52,610 bases of DNA, taken from Bacteroidaceae bacterium (lineage in GTDB: Bacteria; Bacteroidota; Bacteroidia; Bacteroidales; Bacteroidaceae). The stretch is from NCBI GenBank assembly GCA_017469685.1, contig JAFUFW010000019.1:1-52610 (forward strand). The letters are read 5' to 3'. Positions 1-10,884 of this stretch are shown in pieces. The position numbers were made by a program, and so were the translations under genes. The notes beneath the pieces were generated by a model that did no database searches, was not told the origin of the DNA, and saw nothing but the letters and a program-made list of their open reading frames with translations. Numbering within the stretch: the first letter of the stretch is position 1; every line of letters begins with the position of its first letter.

Positions 1-1042
1 CAATTTCTTCCCAATCATCGGGAGTTACCCAGAATTCAACACCATCACCGTTCGTGATCAGACGGCCAAGTGTAGCGTTGGGGTTGAGTTTGCCATTCTG
101 GCCGATGAGCACCTGGCTCTCAGGATAGCTGAAAACATTGTAGCCCAGACCGCCGTTACCAGAGTCGCCGAACAGGTTTGCGTTGGCGCGCTGCCAAGCT
201 TCGGTAGCATTGGAGCCATTGTCAATGTAATAGTTCTTAAGTGCCTCATACTGCATCTCATAGTACTGACCCGGAGACTTGATGGTATTGTAGTGCTGCA
301 GGGCACGGGAGTTCCAACCCACCTTAGCATCGAAAGTCACCTTGGCGTCGCCAGCCTTGGCGCGCTTAGTCACAATCTGGATCACACCATTCGAACCACG
401 AGCACCGTAGAGGGCATTGGCAGCAGCATCCTTTGTGACTGTCATGCTCTCAATGTCACTGGGGTTGAGGTTTGCGATGTCGCCGTTGTAGGGAGCGCCG
501 TCAACGATGATAAGAGGATCATTGCTGGCGTTCAGCGAGCTGAAACCACGAACGCGGATGGTAGCCGTAGCGCCAGGAGCGCCATTAGAGCTAACCGTCT
601 GCAGACCAGGAACGACACCTGCAAGAGCGTCTGTGACGCTCGTCACCTGACTCTTAGCAAGATCCTCGGACGTGATAACCTTGGCAGAACCAGTGAAGGA
701 AGCCTTGGTAGCAGTTCCGAAACCTTGAACGAGCACCTCGTTCATGAGGCTCTCATCGCTGTCAAGTGAAATGCGCATGCCACTGCGAGCCTTAACCACA
801 CGAGTGATCATACCGATGTGAGAGAACTGCAGACGAGCGTCTGCATTGGGAACTGTGATAACGAAATCACCGTCGATGTTGGTCACTGTGCCTGCCTTGT
901 CGCCGACAATCTTGACGGAAACACCAGGCAATGGTTCACCGTCATCAGCACTGATAACAGTTCCCTTCACTTGCACCTGAGCCAGAGCCGCACCTACACA
1001 GAGCAGCAAGCTGGCCAGAAACATAGAAAGTCTTTTTTCCAT
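1..1042 (-). CDS. SusC/RagA-family TonB-dependent outer-membrane receptor, C-terminus cut by window edge
   Basis: About 347 N-terminal codons are present. They show a signal peptide (residues 1-22, cleavage after ALA), a carboxypeptidase-regulatory-like domain (about 23-105, with GTVISADDGEPLPGVSVKI) and a SusC plug with IRVRGFSSLNASNDPLIIVD and LYGARGSNGVI. The family forms the barrel of outer-membrane uptake complexes with a SusD lipoprotein, energised by TonB; its susD partner would lie outside the window. The gene diverges from the susC at 1531. Leader and first 68 coding bases are identical to that gene, after which the DNA drops to clear paralogue level. The start is fixed by the shared ATG. 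The substrate cannot be read from this fragment. Confidence 0.95.
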   Translation of the reverse strand, partial: MEKRLSMFLASLLLCVGAALAQVQVKGTVISADDGEPLPGVSVKIVGDKAGTVTNIDGDFVITVPNADARLQFSHIGMITRVVKARSGMRISLDSDESLMNEVLVQGFGTATKASFTGSAKVITSEDLAKSQVTSVTDALAGVVPGLQTVSSNGAPGATATIRVRGFSSLNASNDPLIIVDGAPYNGDIANLNPSDIESMTVTKDAAANALYGARGSNGVIQIVTKRAKAGDAKVTFDAKVGWNSRALQHYNTIKSPGQYYEMQYEALKNYYIDNGSNATEAWQRANANLFGDSGNGGLGYNVFSYPESQVLIGQNGKLNPNATLGRLITNGDGVEFWVTPDDWEEI

Positions 1043-1079
1043 AAATACTCTCTTTAATTAAACATAATACTTGTTAGTG
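975..1079 (-). repeat. Left arm of perfect 105-bp inverted repeat (susC leader plus signal peptide)
   Basis: The reverse complement of 975-1079 equals 1494-1598 base for base. Each arm holds 37 bases of 5' leader and the first 68 coding bases of a susC gene. Identity ends sharply at both edges, which points to recombination or gene conversion between the copies. Confidence 0.97.
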
Positions 1080-1147
1080 AAAAAACATTTTGCTTTACAA
1101 TCTTTTTGTACGGGCTAATATCCTGTGGACATAAAACTAAAACGCCA

Positions 1148-1155
1148 CAAAATTA
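1148..1155 (-). promoter_or_regulatory. Candidate -7 element for the left susC
   Basis: On the minus strand this reads TAATTTTG, matching the Bacteroidota -7 consensus TAnnTTTG. No good TTTG -33 element lies at the usual 19-21 bp spacing, so the call is tentative. Transcription would begin about 100 bases before the ATG and cross the inverted-repeat arm. Confidence 0.35.
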
Positions 1156-1373
1156 ATATAAAAATTGCAAACGACAGTGAAATTTATAAAAAAATGTTGC
1201 TTTTTCTTCCATTTTGTGCAAAAAGCCGTTATAAAATCAGCTTTTTGGTATGAAGATGTAATGCGACTCCGGCACTCTACCGCTTGCGCCATTTTTGCTC
1301 TTTTTAAGGTTTAAGCCTCTCGTTTTTTGCATTTTTTTGCCTTGACGTGGAATTCTTTCCAGGGCTCGGAAAT

Positions 1374-1417
1374 ATAATGCGGCCAATCTAAACGCCCAAT
1401 TAGGTTTGCCGCATTAT
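1374..1417. repeat. Imperfect palindrome in the susC spacer (17-bp arms, 10-base loop)
   Basis: The outer ten bases, ATAATGCGGC and GCCGCATTAT, pair perfectly and the next seven pair at five positions. The right arm contains TAGGTTTG (1401-1408), a match to the -7 consensus on the plus strand. It could be a protein-binding operator, a recombinase site or a transcript hairpin. Confidence 0.55.
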
Positions 1418-1493
1418 TATATATTCCCTTTACGATGCTATAATATATAATAATGTACGCGCGCTCGCGCGAGGGCCTATTTTGTGAAAATTA

Positions 1494-1598
1494 CACTAAC
1501 AAGTATTATGTTTAATTAAAGAGAGTATTTATGGAAAAAAGACTTTCTATGTTTCTGGCCAGCTTGCTGCTCTGTGTAGGTGCGGCTCTGGCTCAGGT
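1494..1598 (+). repeat. Right arm of perfect 105-bp inverted repeat
   Basis: Partner of 975-1079. It runs from CACTAACAAG in the leader to GCTCAGGT, just past the signal-peptide codons of the right susC. The next coding bases already differ between the two genes at synonymous positions. Confidence 0.97.
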
Positions 1599-4500
1599 AC
1601 AAGTAAAGGGTACCATCATTTCAGCTGATGATGGCGAACCGCTACCCGGAGCCTCAGTTAAGATTGCAGGTGCTAAAACGGGCACAGTTACCGACATAAA
1701 TGGTGACTTCACCATCGCTGTACCCGACAACAACACGCGTCTGGAAATTTCCCACATCGGGATGCTCCCACGTATCGTAAGGGCTCGCAATGGAATGCGC
1801 ATAGCTCTGGACACCGACAACAAGATCCTTGACGAGCTTATTGTGACGGCTTACGGTACACAGACCAAGGCTCAGTTTACGGGTTCGGCTTCAATCATGA
1901 ACGCAGAGGAGCTCGAGAAGTACCAGGTCACGAATGCGCTCGACGCTCTTAAAGGCCGTGCTTCAGGTGTGCAGATTAACAACGCTTCCGGACAGCCCGG
2001 TATGTCGAGCACTATCCGCATCCGTGGTATCAACTCGCTCAACGCAGCCAATGATCCCCTCATCGTTGTCGACGGCTCACCCTACGACGGCGACATCAAC
2101 CTCATCAACCCCAACGACATTGAGTCGATGACGGTGCTTAAGGATGCTGCTTCAACAGCACTCTACGGTGCGCGTGGCGGTAATGGTGTCATCATGATCA
2201 CGACGAAGAATGCCCAGAAGGGTAAGGATGCTACCATCACGGTCGATGCCAAATGGGGTGTCAACCAGAAGGGTACTCCTCAGTACGACAAGATAAGCGA
2301 CCCCGCAGGCTACTATGAGACATGGTATCGCGGCCTCAATAATTATGCTACAAACAAGCTTGGTATGGCCCCCAATGCCGCATGGCAGTGGTCTAACCAG
2401 AATATGTTCAGCGCAAACAACGTAGGCGACGAGAGCCTTGGATACAACGTCTATACCGTTCCCAACGGGCAGTTCCTCATCGGACAGAACGGCAAGCTCA
2501 ACCCCAATGCCACCCTCGGACGCCTTATCAGCTACGGCGGCAACGATTATTGGCTCACCCCCGACGACTGGGAGGACGAGACCTACAACAATGCTCTCCG
2601 CCAGGACTACACCGTGAGCGCTTCAGGTGCTAACGAACGTGGCTCCTTCTACCTCTCAGCCAACTACCTCAACATGGACGGTATCACAGCCGCTTCTGAC
2701 TACGAGCGCTTCAGCACACGCATGAAAGCCGACTATCAGCTGAAGAAGTGGTTGAAGGTTGGCGCCAACATGTCATACAACCACTACGAGCAAAACTACC
2801 TCCGTACCGACGAGGAAGGATCAACAGGTTCGTCAGGCAATGCCTTCGCCTTCATGAACATCGCTCCTATCTATCCGATGTTCATTCGTGACGCCCAAGG
2901 CAACATCATGTACGACCAGACAGCTCACATTGAGAACTACGACTATGGCGATGGCAACATCATCGGTCTGCGCCGCGCTTTCCTCTCACAGGCTAACCCC
3001 GTTTCAGCTAACCGCTTGGACACTCGCCAGACCGAGGGCAACAACTTCTCCGGTACTGGTACCATCGAGGTGCGTCTGCCTTATGGCTTCACACTCTCGT
3101 CCATCAACTACGTCTACCTCGACGAATACCGCTACACGGGCGTGACTAACCCCTTCTTCGGTCAGTATGCCAGCTCAAAGGGTATCGTGAGCAAGGATCA
3201 CGGACGTACTTGGGCACGCAACTTCCAGCAGCGCATCGACTGGCGTCATGAATATGGCAAGAACGATATCGAAGTGATGTTGGGTCACGAGTACTATCGT
3301 CGCGACACATACGACCTCGACTACTACAAGACCAACATGTTCAGCGTCAACAACAAGGAACTCGCAGGCGCCATCATTGCCGGAACAGGTAGCTCCTCAA
3401 AGGCTGGCTACAACACCGAATCATGGCTGGGACGTGCTCTCTACAACTACGACCAGCGCTACTTCGGCGAACTCTCTGTAGTTCGTGAGGCTTCTTCTCC
3501 CCGCTTCGACAGCAAGCACTGGTGGGGCACTTTCTGGAGCGCCTCAGCAGGCTGGCTCATCAACAAGGAGAAGTTCCTTGCCGATCAGAAATGGATCGAC
3601 GAGTTGAAACTTAAGGCTTCCTACGGTGAGAACGGTAACGACCGCATCGGCACATACCTCTTCACCAACACTTACACTGTTACGAACTCAAACGACCAGG
3701 TATCGCTCGTACCCTCAACAACGCAGGGTAACCCCAAAATCTCCTGGGAAAAGAATGCCAAGTTCAATATCGGTGTCGACTTCAGCTTCTGGAACCGCCG
3801 ACTCGAAGGTGGCATTGAGTTCTACAACAACAAGACCAACGACATGCTCTTCCGCTTCCCGCTCCCCGTATCATTCGGTTACACAGGTTTCTACACCAAC
3901 GTAGGCGACATGGTTAACAGAGGTGTTGAAGTAGAAGTTAGCGGCGACATCATCCGCAACAAACTGCTCACTTGGAGCGCTTACGCCAACCTCACCACCA
4001 ACCACAATGAGGTTACACGCCTCCCCGAGGAGCGTCGCACTCAGCACTACTGGAGCTCTGACGGCACACGCTACGACGGTTTCTCAAGCGGAAGCTACTT
4101 CTATGCCGAAGGCCTCTCGAGCTATGCTTACATGACTCACAAGTATGCCGGCGTCAACGAGGAAGGCCAGAGCCTCTGGTACAAGACAAAGTACAAGAAG
4201 GATGAGAACGACGAGTACATCTATGCCGACGAAGAAAAGACTATTCAGGTGTTCGACGAACTCGAGACTACTACCGACTACAGCGAAGCCGACGACTACA
4301 TCATCGGCGACATCATGCCTAAGGTCTACGGCGGTTTCGGCACATCGCTCGACATCAAGGGCTTCGACATCTCGGCCGACTTCACCTATCAGCTCGGCGG
4401 CAAGGTCTATGACAGCACTTATGCAAGCCTGATGAGCCTCAACACCACGGGTGCAGCTCTCCACAAGGATATTCTCAATGCATGGACAACCGAGAACACT

Positions 4501-4800
4501 GGCAGCGACATTCCTCGTCTGCAATACGGCGACACCTACATGGCAGGAGGTTCTGACCGCTTCCTCACAAGCGCACGCTTCCTCAGCCTGCAGAACGTAA
4601 CCGTAGGCTACACATTCCCCCGCAAGTTTACCGAGAAACTGCAGATTCAGAAACTCCGCCTCTACTTCGTTGGCGACAACCTCTATGTCTGGTCTGCTCG
4701 TAAGGGCCTCGACCCAAGAATGGTACTCGCAGGTGCTGTCAACAACACTTACTACTCAGCCATCCGCACCTTCTCTGGCGGTATTTCTGTCACATTTTAA
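1531..4800 (+). CDS. SusC/RagA-family TonB-dependent outer-membrane receptor
   Basis: A 1089-residue protein, full length for the family. The signal peptide is at 1-22, a CarboxypepD_reg-like domain at about 23-105 (GEPLPGASVKI), the plug at about 105-230 (IRIRGINSLNAANDPLIVVD, LYGARGGNGVIMITT) and a long barrel ends in the typical aromatic GISVTF. It should form a gated outer-membrane importer with the SusD encoded directly downstream. The start is supported by the identical ATG context in the divergent paralogue. No carbohydrate-active enzyme is encoded in this locus, so the imported nutrient may be peptide, glycan or something else. Confidence 0.97.
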   Translation: MEKRLSMFLASLLLCVGAALAQVQVKGTIISADDGEPLPGASVKIAGAKTGTVTDINGDFTIAVPDNNTRLEISHIGMLPRIVRARNGMRIALDTDNKILDELIVTAYGTQTKAQFTGSASIMNAEELEKYQVTNALDALKGRASGVQINNASGQPGMSSTIRIRGINSLNAANDPLIVVDGSPYDGDINLINPNDIESMTVLKDAASTALYGARGGNGVIMITTKNAQKGKDATITVDAKWGVNQKGTPQYDKISDPAGYYETWYRGLNNYATNKLGMAPNAAWQWSNQNMFSANNVGDESLGYNVYTVPNGQFLIGQNGKLNPNATLGRLISYGGNDYWLTPDDWEDETYNNALRQDYTVSASGANERGSFYLSANYLNMDGITAASDYERFSTRMKADYQLKKWLKVGANMSYNHYEQNYLRTDEEGSTGSSGNAFAFMNIAPIYPMFIRDAQGNIMYDQTAHIENYDYGDGNIIGLRRAFLSQANPVSANRLDTRQTEGNNFSGTGTIEVRLPYGFTLSSINYVYLDEYRYTGVTNPFFGQYASSKGIVSKDHGRTWARNFQQRIDWRHEYGKNDIEVMLGHEYYRRDTYDLDYYKTNMFSVNNKELAGAIIAGTGSSSKAGYNTESWLGRALYNYDQRYFGELSVVREASSPRFDSKHWWGTFWSASAGWLINKEKFLADQKWIDELKLKASYGENGNDRIGTYLFTNTYTVTNSNDQVSLVPSTTQGNPKISWEKNAKFNIGVDFSFWNRRLEGGIEFYNNKTNDMLFRFPLPVSFGYTGFYTNVGDMVNRGVEVEVSGDIIRNKLLTWSAYANLTTNHNEVTRLPEERRTQHYWSSDGTRYDGFSSGSYFYAEGLSSYAYMTHKYAGVNEEGQSLWYKTKYKKDENDEYIYADEEKTIQVFDELETTTDYSEADDYIIGDIMPKVYGGFGTSLDIKGFDISADFTYQLGGKVYDSTYASLMSLNTTGAALHKDILNAWTTENTGSDIPRLQYGDTYMAGGSDRFLTSARFLSLQNVTVGYTFPRKFTEKLQIQKLRLYFVGDNLYVWSARKGLDPRMVLAGAVNNTYYSAIRTFSGGISVTF

Positions 4801-4830
4801 TAATTGAACACATCCATAAAGACAAAGAAT

Positions 4831-6465
4831 ATGAAAAGCATTTATAACAAAATATTCGGTTTCGGTCTGGCTGTCATCTTCGTACCAGCTTTAACTGGGT
4901 GTATTGAAGAGATAGAGCCGACCACCATCGTGACGGCTGAACAGGCTGCAGAGTCGCCCACAGCATCTGAGGCACTGCAGATGGCCATGCCCGCTTATCT
5001 GAACCGTTACACCGATACTGGCTGGCACTACAGCTACGGCTATGCAGCACAGATGATGATTCGAAACATGCTTGGAGGCGACGAGGGCTTCAATGTGTCG
5101 ACCTACTCCGGTCACTTCGCACGTTGGGGAATCAACCAATACCAAGGTGCCGACTACGTTTTCGCAGGTTACGTGTGGAGCTACTACTACGGTTTCCTGC
5201 TCGCAGTGAACAATATGGTCGGAGCTGTCGACCCCGAGAATGCAAACGAGGCTCAGCTTGGTGCTCTCGGCACAGGTCTCGCCTACCGTGCGCTCATCTA
5301 TCTTGATCTGGCCCGTCTGTACGAATTCCTCCCCAATGATGTCTTCACCGACGGCCTCAATGCCGATGGTAACAACGTTCTGGGGCTGACAGTGCCCATC
5401 GTTACCGACAAGACAGAGGTCAGCGTGGCTCGCAACAACCCACGTGCTACCCACGAGGAGATGTACGAATTCATCCTTTCGGATCTCGAAAATGCCGAAA
5501 AGTATATCGTAAATCAGAAAACTACGAGTGGCCAGGTGCTGCCCGACCTCTCCTGTGTCTACGGCCTGAAGGCGCGTCTTTACATGTGGAATGAGGATTA
5601 TGCCAACGCCCAGAAGTACGCCCGCCTTGCTATTGATAACGCTAAGGTTCCCGTAATCTCTCAGGAACGTGCCCTCAGCAAAGTCAATGGTATGAACACA
5701 GCCAGCGACTTCATGTGGGCCGGACAGATGACTTCTGAGGATAATGTCGTTCAAACAGGTATTATCAACTGGATAAGCTGGGCTTCCAACCAGACAACTT
5801 TCGGTTACACTGGACCTGCCACAGAGATGTACCTCATCTGCGATGCCAATTTCTACAACCGCATCAGCAATACCGACTGGCGTAAGCTCTGGTTCCAGGC
5901 TCCCGAAGGCTCACCCCTGCGCAGCCAGATCCAGTACATGACCGCCGACGATGCCGAACTTCTTGTTCCTTATGCATCACTGAAGTTCCGTCCCGCTCAG
6001 GGCAACATCTCTGACTATTCAGTAGGAGCAGCAGCATCTTATCCCGTAATGCGTGTAGAGGAAATGTACTTCATCGAGGCTGAAGCTGCTGCACAGCAGA
6101 ATCCCTCTGCAGGTCTCGAACTGCTGAAGAACTTCATGACAGCTTACCGCGATCCCAACTACGCTACACGCGCAACAGATAAGGATGCCGTCATTGACGA
6201 AATCGTCTTCCAGAAGGAGGTTGAGTTGTGGGGCGAGGGCCAGCGCGTCTTCGACGTGAAGCGTCTGAACATCCCTGTCACACGCGGCTACAAGGACACT
6301 CCTTTCTATTCACAATTCCGTCTGAACACAACTACTCGTCCGGCTTGGACCAATTTGGTTATCTCGCGTAACGAGGTGATGAACAACAGCGCTCTGAAGG
6401 GCTTCAACAACCCCGATCCCTCAGACAAGTACACAATCTGGACTGAGGAAACAGCAGAAGACTAA
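4831..6465 (+). CDS. SusD/RagB-family nutrient-binding outer-membrane lipoprotein
   Basis: A 544-residue protein whose signal peptide ends in the lipobox LTGC (Cys24), which sets the ATG at 4831 rather than the in-frame TTG at 4804. The SusD fold is indicated by LGTGLAYRALIYLDLARLYE in the TPR-like first half and by FQKEVELWGEGQRVFDVKRL near the end, a signature of the family C-terminus. It caps the SusC barrel at the cell surface and captures the substrate. It follows susC by 30 bases and is almost surely co-transcribed with it. Confidence 0.96.
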   Translation: MKSIYNKIFGFGLAVIFVPALTGCIEEIEPTTIVTAEQAAESPTASEALQMAMPAYLNRYTDTGWHYSYGYAAQMMIRNMLGGDEGFNVSTYSGHFARWGINQYQGADYVFAGYVWSYYYGFLLAVNNMVGAVDPENANEAQLGALGTGLAYRALIYLDLARLYEFLPNDVFTDGLNADGNNVLGLTVPIVTDKTEVSVARNNPRATHEEMYEFILSDLENAEKYIVNQKTTSGQVLPDLSCVYGLKARLYMWNEDYANAQKYARLAIDNAKVPVISQERALSKVNGMNTASDFMWAGQMTSEDNVVQTGIINWISWASNQTTFGYTGPATEMYLICDANFYNRISNTDWRKLWFQAPEGSPLRSQIQYMTADDAELLVPYASLKFRPAQGNISDYSVGAAASYPVMRVEEMYFIEAEAAAQQNPSAGLELLKNFMTAYRDPNYATRATDKDAVIDEIVFQKEVELWGEGQRVFDVKRLNIPVTRGYKDTPFYSQFRLNTTTRPAWTNLVISRNEVMNNSALKGFNNPDPSDKYTIWTEETAED

Positions 6466-6505
6466 TGTGTTAAACAATTAAGCAACAACAATAACTTTTG
6501 AATCA

Positions 6506-8254
6506 ATGAAAAAGATTTTTAAATATAGCTTGATGCTTCTGGTTGCGGGCTTCGCTCTCTCTTCGTGTGGCGACACATACGAATACACTCCCGCAGAGGC
6601 ACCCGCAGGCGCTCAAGTCTATTTCAGCAATGAAATGGCAGAGACGATAGAGCTCAGCAAGAGCCAGTCGTCGTTCAATGTGACTGTGCTTCGTGCCAAC
6701 ACTGAAGGTGAACTCACCGTTCCCGTCACGGCAACCCTGCCCGAAGGAAGCATTTTCAACATTCCTGCCTCTGTAACATTCCCTGACGGAGCCAACGCTG
6801 CAGATGTTGTCATCACTTACAACCCCGAAGACCTCAACTACGGCGACTACACCGACATCACCCTTCAGGTAGGCGACGAGACATTCACAACACCTTATGG
6901 CGTCTCTTCTTACAGCTTCAAGGCTGGTGCTACGGCTTGGATCTCCTTGGGTACGGGTCAGTATCGCGACGACCTCTTCACTTCATGGTATTCTATTGAG
7001 AACTTGACTTATGAGGTTGAGATTGAGAAGAACGTAGTTGAAGAAGGTCTCTATCGCGTCGTAAATCCATACGGTGCGACCTATCCTTACAACGACCCGG
7101 GCGACTGGGACGCTTCCCAGAACTACTACTTGGTCATCGATGCTACCGACCCCGATTACGTTTGGTTCTCCGAATTCCACACTGGTACAGACTGGGGTAA
7201 AGGCGAAATGTGGTTCCTCAGCTTCGTGCAGTACCAACTCAACAGAGGCGTCTCGCTTGATGCTCTCAAGAGTCAGGCTCCCCAGTACTTCGGTACTTTC
7301 AAGGATGGCCTTATCACGATGCCCGAACCCAACTCGATTCTTGCAGGCCGTGGCGATGACGGTTATTGGTATTCCAATGGCAATGGTATGTTTGCCATTG
7401 CCCTGCCAGGCGCAAAGATTGCGAACTACACCATCGAGTATGAGTACGTGGGCCGCTTCATTGCCACCGATAAGCAATACTACGTCGAAGGTATACCTTC
7501 GTTTGGCGATGACGTTGTCTCTGCCAAGGCAGCTCTCGTAACTGATGAGACCTATGATACCGTACGCGAGCAGATCATCGCTGGCGAAGCTGGCGTTGAC
7601 GTTGCCGATGGCGAAGCCTTCCGCTTGCCGTTCGATGAGACTGGTACTTACTACGTGCTCATCATTGCATTCAACGAGGCTGGCGAAGTTGCCAACGAGC
7701 TGGCATCCAAGGTTAATGCCGTGATTGAAGGTGGTGTGCCTTCCATCAATTGGGAAGCTCTGTATGTAGGTTCCTACTACTACGACCTCCTCAGCGATCC
7801 TGAAAAAGAAGATTATGCCATCGATGAGGACCTTGTTCTCAGCCGCGATGCCGACAATGCCTCACATTTCCAGATTGCTCCCTGGGGCTCTGATGTGACT
7901 CTCGAGTTCGTGATGAATGAAGACGGCAGCCTCACCATCCCCGCCGACCAGCCTACAGGCATCTCCGGCCAGCATGGTGAGTTGTATATCACAGACGTTC
8001 AGACTTTCACTGGCGGTGATTCACGCTATGCAAACTACGTCAGCTTCTTCAAGGACAATGTCTTTACGTTCTACACGATCTATTACAACGATCAGGACAC
8101 CTATGGCGTTTGCGAAGACACCTTCACCCTTACCGGCAATGCCGGTGTGAAGTCTGCCGTGCGCGTCAGCCACAAGAAGATTGCAGACTTCAAGGATGTC
8201 AAGACGGTGACCCGCCTCGAGAAGCGCAACGTCAAGTACTTCGCAGCAAAGTAA
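6506..8254 (+). CDS. Sus-locus surface lipoprotein of unknown fold, SusE/F position
   Basis: A 582-residue protein with a lipobox ending at Cys21 (ALSSC). Residues about 33-125 look like a Calx-beta or immunoglobulin-like sandwich (AQVYFSNEMAETIELS followed by alternating beta strands). The rest is aromatic, beta-rich and not assignable by eye. It sits third in the susC-susD operon, where SusE/F-type surface binding proteins are usual, so an accessory binding role is inferred from position. The 40-base gap to susD holds no terminator, and a strong terminator follows the gene. Confidence 0.85.
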   Translation: MKKIFKYSLMLLVAGFALSSCGDTYEYTPAEAPAGAQVYFSNEMAETIELSKSQSSFNVTVLRANTEGELTVPVTATLPEGSIFNIPASVTFPDGANAADVVITYNPEDLNYGDYTDITLQVGDETFTTPYGVSSYSFKAGATAWISLGTGQYRDDLFTSWYSIENLTYEVEIEKNVVEEGLYRVVNPYGATYPYNDPGDWDASQNYYLVIDATDPDYVWFSEFHTGTDWGKGEMWFLSFVQYQLNRGVSLDALKSQAPQYFGTFKDGLITMPEPNSILAGRGDDGYWYSNGNGMFAIALPGAKIANYTIEYEYVGRFIATDKQYYVEGIPSFGDDVVSAKAALVTDETYDTVREQIIAGEAGVDVADGEAFRLPFDETGTYYVLIIAFNEAGEVANELASKVNAVIEGGVPSINWEALYVGSYYYDLLSDPEKEDYAIDEDLVLSRDADNASHFQIAPWGSDVTLEFVMNEDGSLTIPADQPTGISGQHGELYITDVQTFTGGDSRYANYVSFFKDNVFTFYTIYYNDQDTYGVCEDTFTLTGNAGVKSAVRVSHKKIADFKDVKTVTRLEKRNVKYFAAK

Positions 8255-8289
8255 TTAGCCACTTAGAAACGTACTCTCTATACTTTAGA

Positions 8290-8320
8290 ATTGTGCCGGG
8301 CTCAACCAACCCGGCACAAT
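8290..8320 (+). terminator. Intrinsic terminator of the susC-susD-lipoprotein operon
   Basis: A perfect 11-bp stem (ATTGTGCCGGG with CCCGGCACAAT) and a nine-base loop, followed by TTCCTT. It ends the sus operon before the peptidase gene. Confidence 0.85.
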
Positions 8321-8355
8321 TTCCTTAAACATACCAATCATCAAAACATGTTTCC

Positions 8356-10092
8356 ATGAAAAGAATCATACTTCTTTGCCTGACAGCAGTCTGCACAACC
8401 CTCATGGCTGCTGAACGCTCGCAAAAAGAGATGCAAGACATCGCGATGCGGCACTTCGCTACGTCGTCCGAAGTGAAGGTTAAGACTGGGCGCGGCACGG
8501 TGGCCGAGGCTCCTCGCTGTGTCCTTTCCTCAGATGAATATTCAGTATTTGCGTCGCCCGCCGATGAAAGTTTTGTAATTGTCTCAAAAAGCGACCTCAC
8601 AAGCCCCGTCATCGGATATGCTCAGGGCCGATTTGCCGACGCAGCCACTGCACCGGGCCTGCGCTGGTACCTCTCGCTTGTAGAGCGTAATATCCAGCAG
8701 GCTGAGGCTTCACATCAACCCTTAGGCCTGACAAGTGTCATGAAGGCCGACCTGAGTCCTGTAGAGCCTTTCATCACTACACATTGGCATCAGTCTGATC
8801 CCTTCAACCTGAAAACCCCTAACAACTATCCGGCCGGGTGCGTGGCTGTGGCCCTTGCGCAATGCATAAACTATTGCCGCTATCCCAGCAGTACTAAATT
8901 CAGGGGATATTGCTATTATACACAGTCAGCCACGAGTACCCGCTACACTGTCGACTCCCTCGACATCAACGACATTTATTTCTATCCCTATCTCGATCTC
9001 TATGGCCGTGCTACCGACGGACAGAAGAAGAGTGTAGCCACGCTGCTTCGCGACTGTGGTTATGCCACCTACATGCAATATTCCAAGAGTGGTAGTGGCA
9101 CCTATCTCTACGAGGCTGGCATCGCCTTGACGACCCGCTTCTCCTACCCACAGGAGTGCATAAAATATGCTGAGCGCTCAGCTTTCGGAGGTTCGCAGGA
9201 TGAGTGGAACCAGATTATCTATGACGAGATTCGCCAGCTGTGCCCCGTCATCTACGGCGGGCAGGATGAGAATGAAGGCGGTCATGCCTTCGTCCTTTGC
9301 GGCCTTGATGCTGACGGCCTTGTCTACGTCAACTGGGGCTGGGGAAGTGATGGTGACGGCTACTACGACATTTCGCTGATGAATCCTCCCGATATGCAAT
9401 TCTCTGATGGGCAGGACATGATTTATGGCATACGCAAGGAGCCTCTCGCTAACGACCGTCCCGAACCCCGTATCTACTCCTACGACGGGCAGCCCTATAC
9501 CTTCAGCTTTGCCGAAGAGAAAGGTGATGACGGGAAAGCGCATGTGGCACTGCATATAACTTTCAATGCAGGCATGGTGAACATGTCGCCAGCGACGCTG
9601 GACGGCGAGTTCGGACTCTTTGGCACCGATGTGACAACGGGCAAGGTGTGGCAGATAAAGGAGACGGACCCCGAGACGTGGGAGCCGGGCGTGGGTTACT
9701 TCCTGCGCGAACCCGCTGCTTTGTTCTACTATTATGTTGAGAAGGATATGGTGGCCGGTCACACCTATCGCATCAGCTTCGGCAGCCGCGACAAGCGCGA
9801 AGGACTGTGGCACAGCGTACTCTGTGAAGGTGGTGAGATAGGTTATGAGATACAATACACCGGCGATGCAGCCACCAGCACTATCTCTGAAGTTATGGAA
9901 CCGCTCTACGACTGTATCTCAACATTAGAGGCCGACGGCCCATCCGTAGCGGGCGTTCTCACCCAAGTCTACGACGCCTCAGGCCGCCTCGTCTATAGCA
10001 CTCCGTCTGAGAGCTTCAACCTCTGGGACGTTCCCGCCCGCGGCTTACTTATCGTCAAGCAGGGCAATGAGACACGCAAGATTGTGCGCTAA
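8356..10092 (+). CDS. Secreted C10-family (streptopain-like) cysteine peptidase
   Basis: A 578-residue exported protease. A signal peptide (1-18) is followed by a Spi/propeptide-like region (about 20-125) and the peptidase C10 core. The nucleophile is Cys162 in YPAGCVAVALAQ and the base is His310 in EGGHAFVLCGLD, followed by the YVNWGWG motif typical of the family. The last about 40 residues (GRLVYSTPSESFNLWDVPA onward) resemble a type IX secretion sorting domain, which suggests release to or anchoring on the cell surface. The gene lies behind the sus terminator and is probably transcribed on its own. In Bacteroidales such enzymes digest host or dietary protein. Confidence 0.93.
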   Translation: MKRIILLCLTAVCTTLMAAERSQKEMQDIAMRHFATSSEVKVKTGRGTVAEAPRCVLSSDEYSVFASPADESFVIVSKSDLTSPVIGYAQGRFADAATAPGLRWYLSLVERNIQQAEASHQPLGLTSVMKADLSPVEPFITTHWHQSDPFNLKTPNNYPAGCVAVALAQCINYCRYPSSTKFRGYCYYTQSATSTRYTVDSLDINDIYFYPYLDLYGRATDGQKKSVATLLRDCGYATYMQYSKSGSGTYLYEAGIALTTRFSYPQECIKYAERSAFGGSQDEWNQIIYDEIRQLCPVIYGGQDENEGGHAFVLCGLDADGLVYVNWGWGSDGDGYYDISLMNPPDMQFSDGQDMIYGIRKEPLANDRPEPRIYSYDGQPYTFSFAEEKGDDGKAHVALHITFNAGMVNMSPATLDGEFGLFGTDVTTGKVWQIKETDPETWEPGVGYFLREPAALFYYYVEKDMVAGHTYRISFGSRDKREGLWHSVLCEGGEIGYEIQYTGDAATSTISEVMEPLYDCISTLEADGPSVAGVLTQVYDASGRLVYSTPSESFNLWDVPARGLLIVKQGNETRKIVR

Positions 10093-10290: not shown

Positions 10291-10884
10291 CTAAACATCC
10301 AGCAGCGTGAGGTCCTTGCCAACAGCCATCTTGCGCAGATTAATTATAGCATAACGCATACGTCCCAAGGCTGTGTTGATGCTGCAATTGGTCAGTGCAG
10401 CAATTTCTTTGAATGACAAGTCTTCGTAGATGCGCATGCGAATTATCTCCTGCTGGTTCTGCGGCAGGCGCGCAATCATCTCGGTGAGGTCAGAGATGGT
10501 CTGTTCGTTGTGGAAATCGGTCTCGACAGTACCCACGGAGAGACTTACCGTATTCTGTAATGCAGCACTGCCATCATCAGTCACAACGTCAACCATCGGC
10601 TTATTGTGGCGCACGGAATCAATGATGAGGTTGCGTGCTATGCGCATGAGCCAGGCGAAGAACTTGCCGTTGTCGGTGTAGCGATGTGAGCGGATGTAGG
10701 TGATAGCCTTGTAAAATGTCTCCTGAAAAAAATCATTTGCCCGGTCTTCGTCGTGAACGATGGCCAGGATGTAGGCATAAAGCGACTGCTGATAGCGTTC
10801 GAGCAGAGCGTCGAACGCAGCGTCATTGCCATTTTCATAGAGCCGTATGAGTCTCTCATCCGTCTCCTTCATGAGGTTTTGCAT
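10291..10884 (-). CDS. RNA polymerase sigma-70 factor, ECF family
   Basis: A 197-residue protein with region 2 at about 24-95 (EDRANDFFQETFYKAITYI, WLMRIARNLIIDSVR) and region 4 at about 140-190 (LPQNQQEIIRMRIYEDLSFK, helix-turn-helix IAALTNCSINTALGRM). It directs core polymerase to its own promoter class. No anti-sigma gene adjoins it, so it is not an obvious FecI-FecR pair. A second in-frame ATG lies four codons downstream at 10872. A good promoter lies about 130 bases upstream. Confidence 0.93.
   Translation of the reverse strand: MQNLMKETDERLIRLYENGNDAAFDALLERYQQSLYAYILAIVHDEDRANDFFQETFYKAITYIRSHRYTDNGKFFAWLMRIARNLIIDSVRHNKPMVDVVTDDGSAALQNTVSLSVGTVETDFHNEQTISDLTEMIARLPQNQQEIIRMRIYEDLSFKEIAALTNCSINTALGRMRYAIINLRKMAVGKDLTLLDV

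Follow-up and report, generated by a model that had tools for sequence, protein, structure and literature searches.

A single predicted promoter between two divergent susC receptor cassettes: a probable inversion switch in a Bacteroidaceae genome

The window analysed here, 52,610 bp long, is the entire contig C62 of a Bacteroidaceae genome (G000; 2.83 Mb, 94 contigs, 87% complete) and carries two divergent SusCD/C10-peptidase cassettes with mirror-image, identical 5′ leaders and signal-peptide codons. One strong predicted promoter, P, lies between them. Recombination between the leaders would invert the spacer, so that P would drive one receptor or the other, with no change to either protein; in the present assembly, P faces the left receptor, on the ComEC side. 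From the sequence comparisons below, this layout probably serves as an inversion switch with one promoter for two receptors, operated by homologous recombination.

The locus is ordered ComEC, a leftward cassette (C10 peptidase, gene X, susD, and susC_L), the spacer, a rightward cassette (susC_R, susD, gene X, and C10 peptidase), and the genes for a sigma factor, fmt, and CLC. The left receptor gene, susC_L (2–1042, minus strand, 347 residues visible), is broken at base 1 by the contig end; its other 736 codons are found on contig C22, at an end that shares a 12-bp overlap with the window, and the same contig has susD, gene X, a C10 peptidase gene, and a ComEC-like gene. The right receptor gene, susC_R (1531–4800, plus strand, 1089 residues), gives a full-length match to the SusC/RagA TonB-dependent receptor family (TIGR04056, 749 bits for a cut-off of 368.25). 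It is followed on the same strand by susD_R (4804–6465, the true start codon of which may be slightly downstream), gene X_R (6506–8254, with no family above its Pfam cut-off), and, at the end of the cassette, a C10-family cysteine peptidase with a Spi-type propeptide (8356–10092). The right flank is made up of a sigma-70 family (ECF-type) sigma factor (10291–10884, minus strand), then fmt and the CLC channel gene. Both in the window (1531–10092) and in locus L129 (6025–13756), each cassette combines SusC/SusD with a C10 cysteine peptidase, with no glycosidase in view, a composition that suggests uptake of peptides rather than glycans. A scan of named genomes with susC_R returned 11 loci, 10 of them from metagenome-derived or uncultured organisms and one from Hallella mizrahii; five come from ruminant gut samples. 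The left receptor of the window (WIN_L) is of the type found in the same-genus genome G066 (94% amino acid identity over 347 residues), and the right one (WIN_R) is of the G003 type (89%).

The earlier note on this DNA had described segments 975–1079 (susC_L side, minus strand) and 1494–1598 (susC_R side, plus strand) as exact reverse complements spanning both 5′ leaders and signal-peptide codons, with sharp edges around a 414-bp spacer, and this description holds throughout. The arms match at 105 of 105 positions, each combining a 37-nt part of the leader with 68 coding nucleotides, and enclose a spacer at 1080–1493, a short segment between inverted repeats as in known invertons. Identity drops to about chance immediately inward of the arms and to 114 of 172 positions in the next 172 nt outward. 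The arms are not unusually long and exact for this genus, as the note had supposed: in seven other divergent susC pairs, the longest exact runs measure 26 to 201 bp, and in an eighth, that of G144, 43 bp. Arm extent varies by species. In G004 (L095 7911–8799), a divergent susC pair has 201-bp exact arms that include 164 nt upstream of the start codon, and a TTACCTTTGC box is located just inside one arm only. The two G087 leaders have only 21 exact bp in common, which counts against the switch. The idea that a palindrome in the leader serves as the crossover site was dropped, as the conserved part is also present in single-copy genes and the gap lengths vary.

An origin of the repeat in draft assembly is very improbable. 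The 105-bp arm does exceed many assembly word lengths, and the contig end is only 974 bp away from it, but the contig breaks inside susC_L and not at the arm, with the 12-bp overlap to the next contig. Moreover, mirrored copies of the same leader occur in four other genomes of the genus, and window 1–1117, which comprises WIN_L with its arm plus the adjoining 38 bp of spacer, aligns unbroken to G066.

Comparison with orthologues indicates how the arms have become identical. Over the 68 coding nucleotides of the arm, WIN_L and WIN_R match at 68 positions, whereas WIN_L matches its G066 orthologue at 55 and WIN_R its G003 orthologue at 58; over the next 172 nt, the corresponding values are 114, 145, and 135. 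As the arms are alike within the window yet unlike their own orthologues, and the reverse is true outside, the outer edges are recombination edges, and the arms were homogenised inside the window's lineage, after its split from the G066 and G003 relatives. Gene conversion, named as the alternative in the earlier note, thus clearly acts on the arms, but does not exclude inversion. Taken as the whole explanation, it would make the leaders a homology anchor that swaps cassettes and keeps the starts of paralogues identical, the promoter layout being a by-product and nothing switching in the living cell. The evident homogenisation within the genome and the arm extents that differ between species, up to the inclusion of 164 nt upstream of the start codon in G004, fit this account; we nevertheless consider it unlikely and favor the switch, on the evidence of promoter placement, promoter reversal, and selection presented below.

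The spacer (36% G+C) is asymmetric. Alignment of 15 regions upstream of susC, from 11 single-copy genes and one gene of each of four pairs, revealed a conserved block with TTG at −33 in most members, 19 bp, and a −7 box TTAnnTTTGC; TAnnTTTG is given as the Bacteroides −7 consensus in a passage of PMC4747536. In the window, alignment and matrix score place P at 1142–1178 on the minus strand, facing susC_L, with the −7 box TAATTTTG at 1148–1155 and CTG at the −33 position in place of the TTG of most relatives. It belongs to a wider block (1080–1225, minus strand) that resembles the upstream regions of the relatives and is present on the susC_L side only. The leave-one-out score of P, 30.1, ranks first across both strands of 16 kb, although it is the lowest among the P copies of the five pairs described below, which counts against the switch; the best background score was 5.8 in 69,938 positions. 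P is presumably active, and a receptor without it would be off or low. No equivalent of P faces right, where there is only an isolated TAGGTTTG (1401–1408, plus strand) devoid of a matching −33 element, from which susC_R may have a weak promoter of its own. This box is contained in an 18-bp inverted repeat (89%) with an 8-nt loop (1374–1417). The promoterless side also carries the motif TATATAATAATGTACGCGCG (1444–1463, plus strand), the core of which, AATGTACGCGCG (1452–1463), occurs at 11 genome sites, compared with none for the reversed pattern, and often follows an AT-rich stretch. Its candidacy as a second promoter for susC_R was dropped, as the core is present at 11 sites and lies at varying distances from downstream reading frames.

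The same arrangement recurs in related species. The leader pattern was searched in 139 genomes of the genus, with the same pattern read backwards as a control, which gave no match; it was found before susC in 22 of them, as 17 single genes and five divergent pairs (the window, G100, G101, G087, and G144). Among 399 genomes drawn from the family, 34 of them genus members, seven matched the leader pattern, all within the genus. With a leave-one-out matrix, P precedes every one of the 17 single genes and, in each of the five pairs, one gene only: the left one in the window and G101, the right one in G100, G087, and G144. The P sides score 14.3 to 55.3 (the lowest being G011, 14.3) and all rank first in their locus, the promoterless sides scoring −21.1 to −5.3. 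Six singles and the G144 pair played no part in defining the matrix, but the G144 core is the same as that of G067, which was used. Within 400 nt, TAnnTTTG is absent from four of the five promoterless sides, the exception being TAGGTTTG before susC_R of the window. The other matches in family-1 spacers that exceed the background maximum of 5.8, namely 7.4 in G101 and 6.1 in G087, both overlap a leader; they were scored, like the background and the other subfamilies, with a matrix that was not leave-one-out, the P counts coming from the leave-one-out one. The pairs of other subfamilies in G092, G063, G004, and G071 reached weak scores of 6.0 to 8.6 with the former matrix and were not counted as cases of one promoter per pair; in G092, two in-arm hits of 9.4 outrank the candidate. 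Gene conversion by itself does not account for exactly one P in five of five pairs.

Both promoter orientations exist among the related species. When the loci are placed with ComEC at the left, P is directed toward the ComEC-side gene in the window, G100, and G101 and toward the other gene in G144 and G087 (the sigma side being absent from the G087 contig), a ratio of 3:2. The single-cassette susC genes point away from the sigma gene, toward the ComEC side, in four of 17 genomes (G067 and G099, with both flanks; G079 and G137, with the sigma flank only) and away from ComEC or toward sigma in seven (G003, G016, and G019, with both flanks; G066, with sigma only; G127, G011, and G029, with ComEC only); orientation could not be placed in six (G112, G010, G002, G091, G148, and G162). 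G099 has kept a C10 fragment on the side without a cassette, which would fit the loss of a promoterless cassette.

One clear reversal was found between sister species, in two draft genomes, G067 with one cassette and G144 with two. They are 91.9% identical along an 8,459-bp stretch that spans C10 to susC and reaches into the leader, and directly past that stretch, the P block is reversed between them (90.6% identity over 170 bp). The upstream region of G067 is that of the G144 right gene, while its susC is that of the G144 left gene (proteins 98% identical). The junction is located within the leader, in which an exact 43-bp run is common to the two G144 genes. The simplest account of these alignments would be an inversion between the leader arms together with loss of one cassette in G067, and the reversal was probably a direct inversion of this kind; a two-step replacement from outside may have occurred instead. 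As G067 lacks the second cassette, the two genomes do not represent states A and B of a single intact locus related by simple inversion. The reversed P of G144 relative to G067 is also left unexplained by gene conversion alone. The central proposal of the earlier note, a likely receptor switch by flipping of the spacer, is supported in part, by the sole strong predicted promoter that a flip would move without changing either protein, by the 3:2 orientations, and by this reversal with its junction in the leader.

Beyond the pairs, the upstream regions and the receptors follow different relationships. Among the 10 best upstream-region matches, the SusC proteins are less than 50% identical in six and 60 to 86% identical in four. 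For instance, G003 and G066 have upstream regions 82% identical over 260 bp and SusC proteins 47% identical; the values are 98% over 99 bp and 47% for G067 and the G144 right gene, 78% over 176 bp and 41% for G016 and G112, and 76% over 197 bp and 35% for G010 and the G087 right gene. Judged from these alignments, promoter and receptor are uncoupled. In addition, G003 and G112 are 98.1% identical over 8,583 bp starting 33 nt 5′ of the ATG (L028 7389–15971 and L091 1354–9936), while beyond the cassette their upstream regions are only 82.8% identical over 58 bp and the flanking region 76% over 653 bp. This is apparently a recent cassette transfer between species, its left junction again lying in the leader, which looks like a junction for cassette exchange. 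This 8.6-kb match counts in favor of an explanation by gene conversion or cassette exchange alone.

The promoterless receptor genes seem to have remained under purifying selection. All five are long open frames of 1088 to 1099 residues. In pairwise comparisons leaving out the first 25 codons, several of them with dS near 1, four of the five have dN/dS values of 0.06 to 0.15 against near relatives: 0.152 for the G144 left gene with G067, 0.071 and 0.064 for WIN_R with G003 and G112, 0.063 and 0.062 for the G087 left gene with G099 and G016, and 0.081 for the G101 right gene with G137. Promoter-bearing susC genes range from 0.079 to 0.134 (seven comparisons). The fifth, the G100 left gene, gives 0.348 at a dS of 1.6, in a comparison made only with the distant G066 and not with its nearest relative, the G144 right gene. 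Polarised synonymous/nonsynonymous changes number 103/17 in WIN_R and 95/19 in G003, and 261/57 in the G087 left gene and 60/10 in G099, counts that fit continued use of the promoterless genes; those of the promoterless G144 left gene (7/3) and of G067 (6/0) are too few to read and are not favorable. Continued selection on promoterless receptors is a further feature for which gene conversion by itself gives no account. A separate weak promoter would explain the low dN/dS as well as switching does.

As the earlier note had remarked, no recombinase is in view: none is encoded on the contig, and no dedicated gene was found in the 87%-complete assembly. G000 gave no match to the serine recombinase family (PF00239) and no Mpi-family serine invertase. 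There are four matches to the tyrosine recombinase family (Phage_integrase, PF00589), all on other contigs than the window's, two being the size of Xer and the other two lying in 448–449-residue frames on contig C25. Homologous, RecA-type recombination would be the most economical driver in the window's lineage. On this reading, the spacer would flip in living populations, though perhaps rarely, with no dedicated recombinase found.

Alternatively, the spacer could be inverted at the leader core by a trans-acting site-specific recombinase, be it Xer, a different tyrosine recombinase, or an enzyme encoded in the missing part of the genome; we regard this as improbable. The leader does contain TTATGTTTAAT, which we take to resemble an Escherichia coli XerD half-site; the genome is incomplete and has the two larger tyrosine recombinases on C25, and in cousins, susC-pair spacers contain serine invertases of the Mpi family. 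On the other hand, beside the absence of serine recombinase matches from G000, no extra tyrosine recombinase common to the five pairs was seen in these incomplete genomes (matches total two in G101 and one in G087), relatives vary in the bases immediately 5′ of TATG and in leader gap lengths, and a site-specific reaction alone would not homogenise 68 coding nucleotides. A dif/Xer core in the leader was set aside on the same grounds as the palindrome, single-copy occurrence and variable gaps, and is retained within this rival explanation.

Serine recombinase matches are present in 22 of the 139 genus genomes, and 19 stretches from 18 of these (without G102, G103, G138, and G161) were viewed. 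Invertases related to that of G092, itself included, occur in 14 of the 19. In G092, G063, G071, and G130, the invertase is placed between two divergent susC genes with inverted repeats (L093 8732–9397, L094 8790–9380, L096 7459–8046, and L233 8160–8744, respectively), and all four, when tested, scored above the cut-off of the Mpi family (NCBIfam NF009949). With inverted repeats over the gene starts and an invertase, these loci have the appearance of complete invertase switches in the same genus. The invertase is beside one susC in G090, G120, and G068 and about 6 kb past the right susC of the pair in G004; the remaining six are not beside susC on the viewed stretch, two of them being at contig starts. 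At or near contig ends, L240 (G068) and L241 (G120) show an invertase with flanking inverted repeats (3572–3610 and 4387–4425; 110–248 and 1068–1206), as if assembly had broken at a repeat of mixed orientation. The genus thus has related layouts both with and without a built-in invertase.

These observations can be joined in one broader reading, which we put forward tentatively, as somewhat short of even probability: a genus-wide plug-in socket combined with a recombinase-free toggle, cassette swap between species, and upkeep of silent cassettes. A constant promoter, 5′ leader, and signal peptide would receive interchangeable receptor-lid-peptidase cassettes by ordinary homologous recombination. 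Where two cassettes are mirrored around one promoter, the same homology would act as a toggle without recombinase; upon transfer between species, it would swap cassettes. Silent cassettes would be kept because the toggle exposes them to selection and would be lost once it stops. SusC-type receptors are important for taking up nutrients and for encounters with phages and immunity, and surface switching in Bacteroidales is known mainly through dedicated invertases. In this genus, five species have the layout with gene-start arms, with no recombinase seen that all would share, and cousins have a similar layout with an embedded Mpi-type invertase. If the switch is real, it would open the way to asking how switches of this kind originate and whether homologous recombination by itself suffices, and would connect the choice of receptor in one cell with the exchange of entire cassettes between species.

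The Hin-type flagellar phase switch also relies on one promoter in an invertible segment for the expression of alternative surface proteins, and silences the second gene through a repressor. In G092, G063, G071, and G130, the invertase sits between the two genes, whereas the window's spacer carries none; the genes here are divergent and symmetric.

In Bacteroidales, invertible promoters and SusC/SusD inversions are established, according to the passages concerned in PMC12632263, PMC4747536, and PMC10939037. In the capsule loci of Bacteroides fragilis, as outlined in PMC4747536 and PMC12632263, a single serine recombinase, Mpi, governs many promoters. The window is similar to these loci, as so outlined, in having a predicted promoter between inverted repeats that would be switched by inversion, and cousins of its genome have an invertase of the Mpi family inside the spacer of a divergent susC pair (four of four tested); it differs in that one promoter would serve two receptors by turns, gene starts form the arms, and G000 has no serine recombinase match. 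Tsr0667 of B. fragilis is described in part of PMC4747536 as producing shufflon-type multiple inversions in three SusC/SusD clusters and nine other regions. In both systems, as far as that description goes, DNA inversion would select among SusC/SusD outer-membrane proteins, but several invertible coding segments are not seen at our locus, which has two divergent cassettes and one pair of exact inner arms; here, the two complete cassettes would stay put and only the promoter segment would move. RagAB of Porphyromonas gingivalis is presented in the opening of the abstract of PMC11817032 as a receptor of the SusCD type that occurs as distinct alleles and is implicated in taking up protein; that opening does not mention two cassettes at one promoter, and the window's cassettes pair SusCD with a C10 peptidase. 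Our literature search, which did not extend to the original 2004 and 2009 B. fragilis papers, found no published one-promoter toggle of divergent susC genes, and we make no claim of its absence from print. Compared with these systems, and with no dedicated recombinase found, what is distinctive here is one predicted promoter placed between two complete divergent receptor cassettes, with the gene starts themselves as arms.
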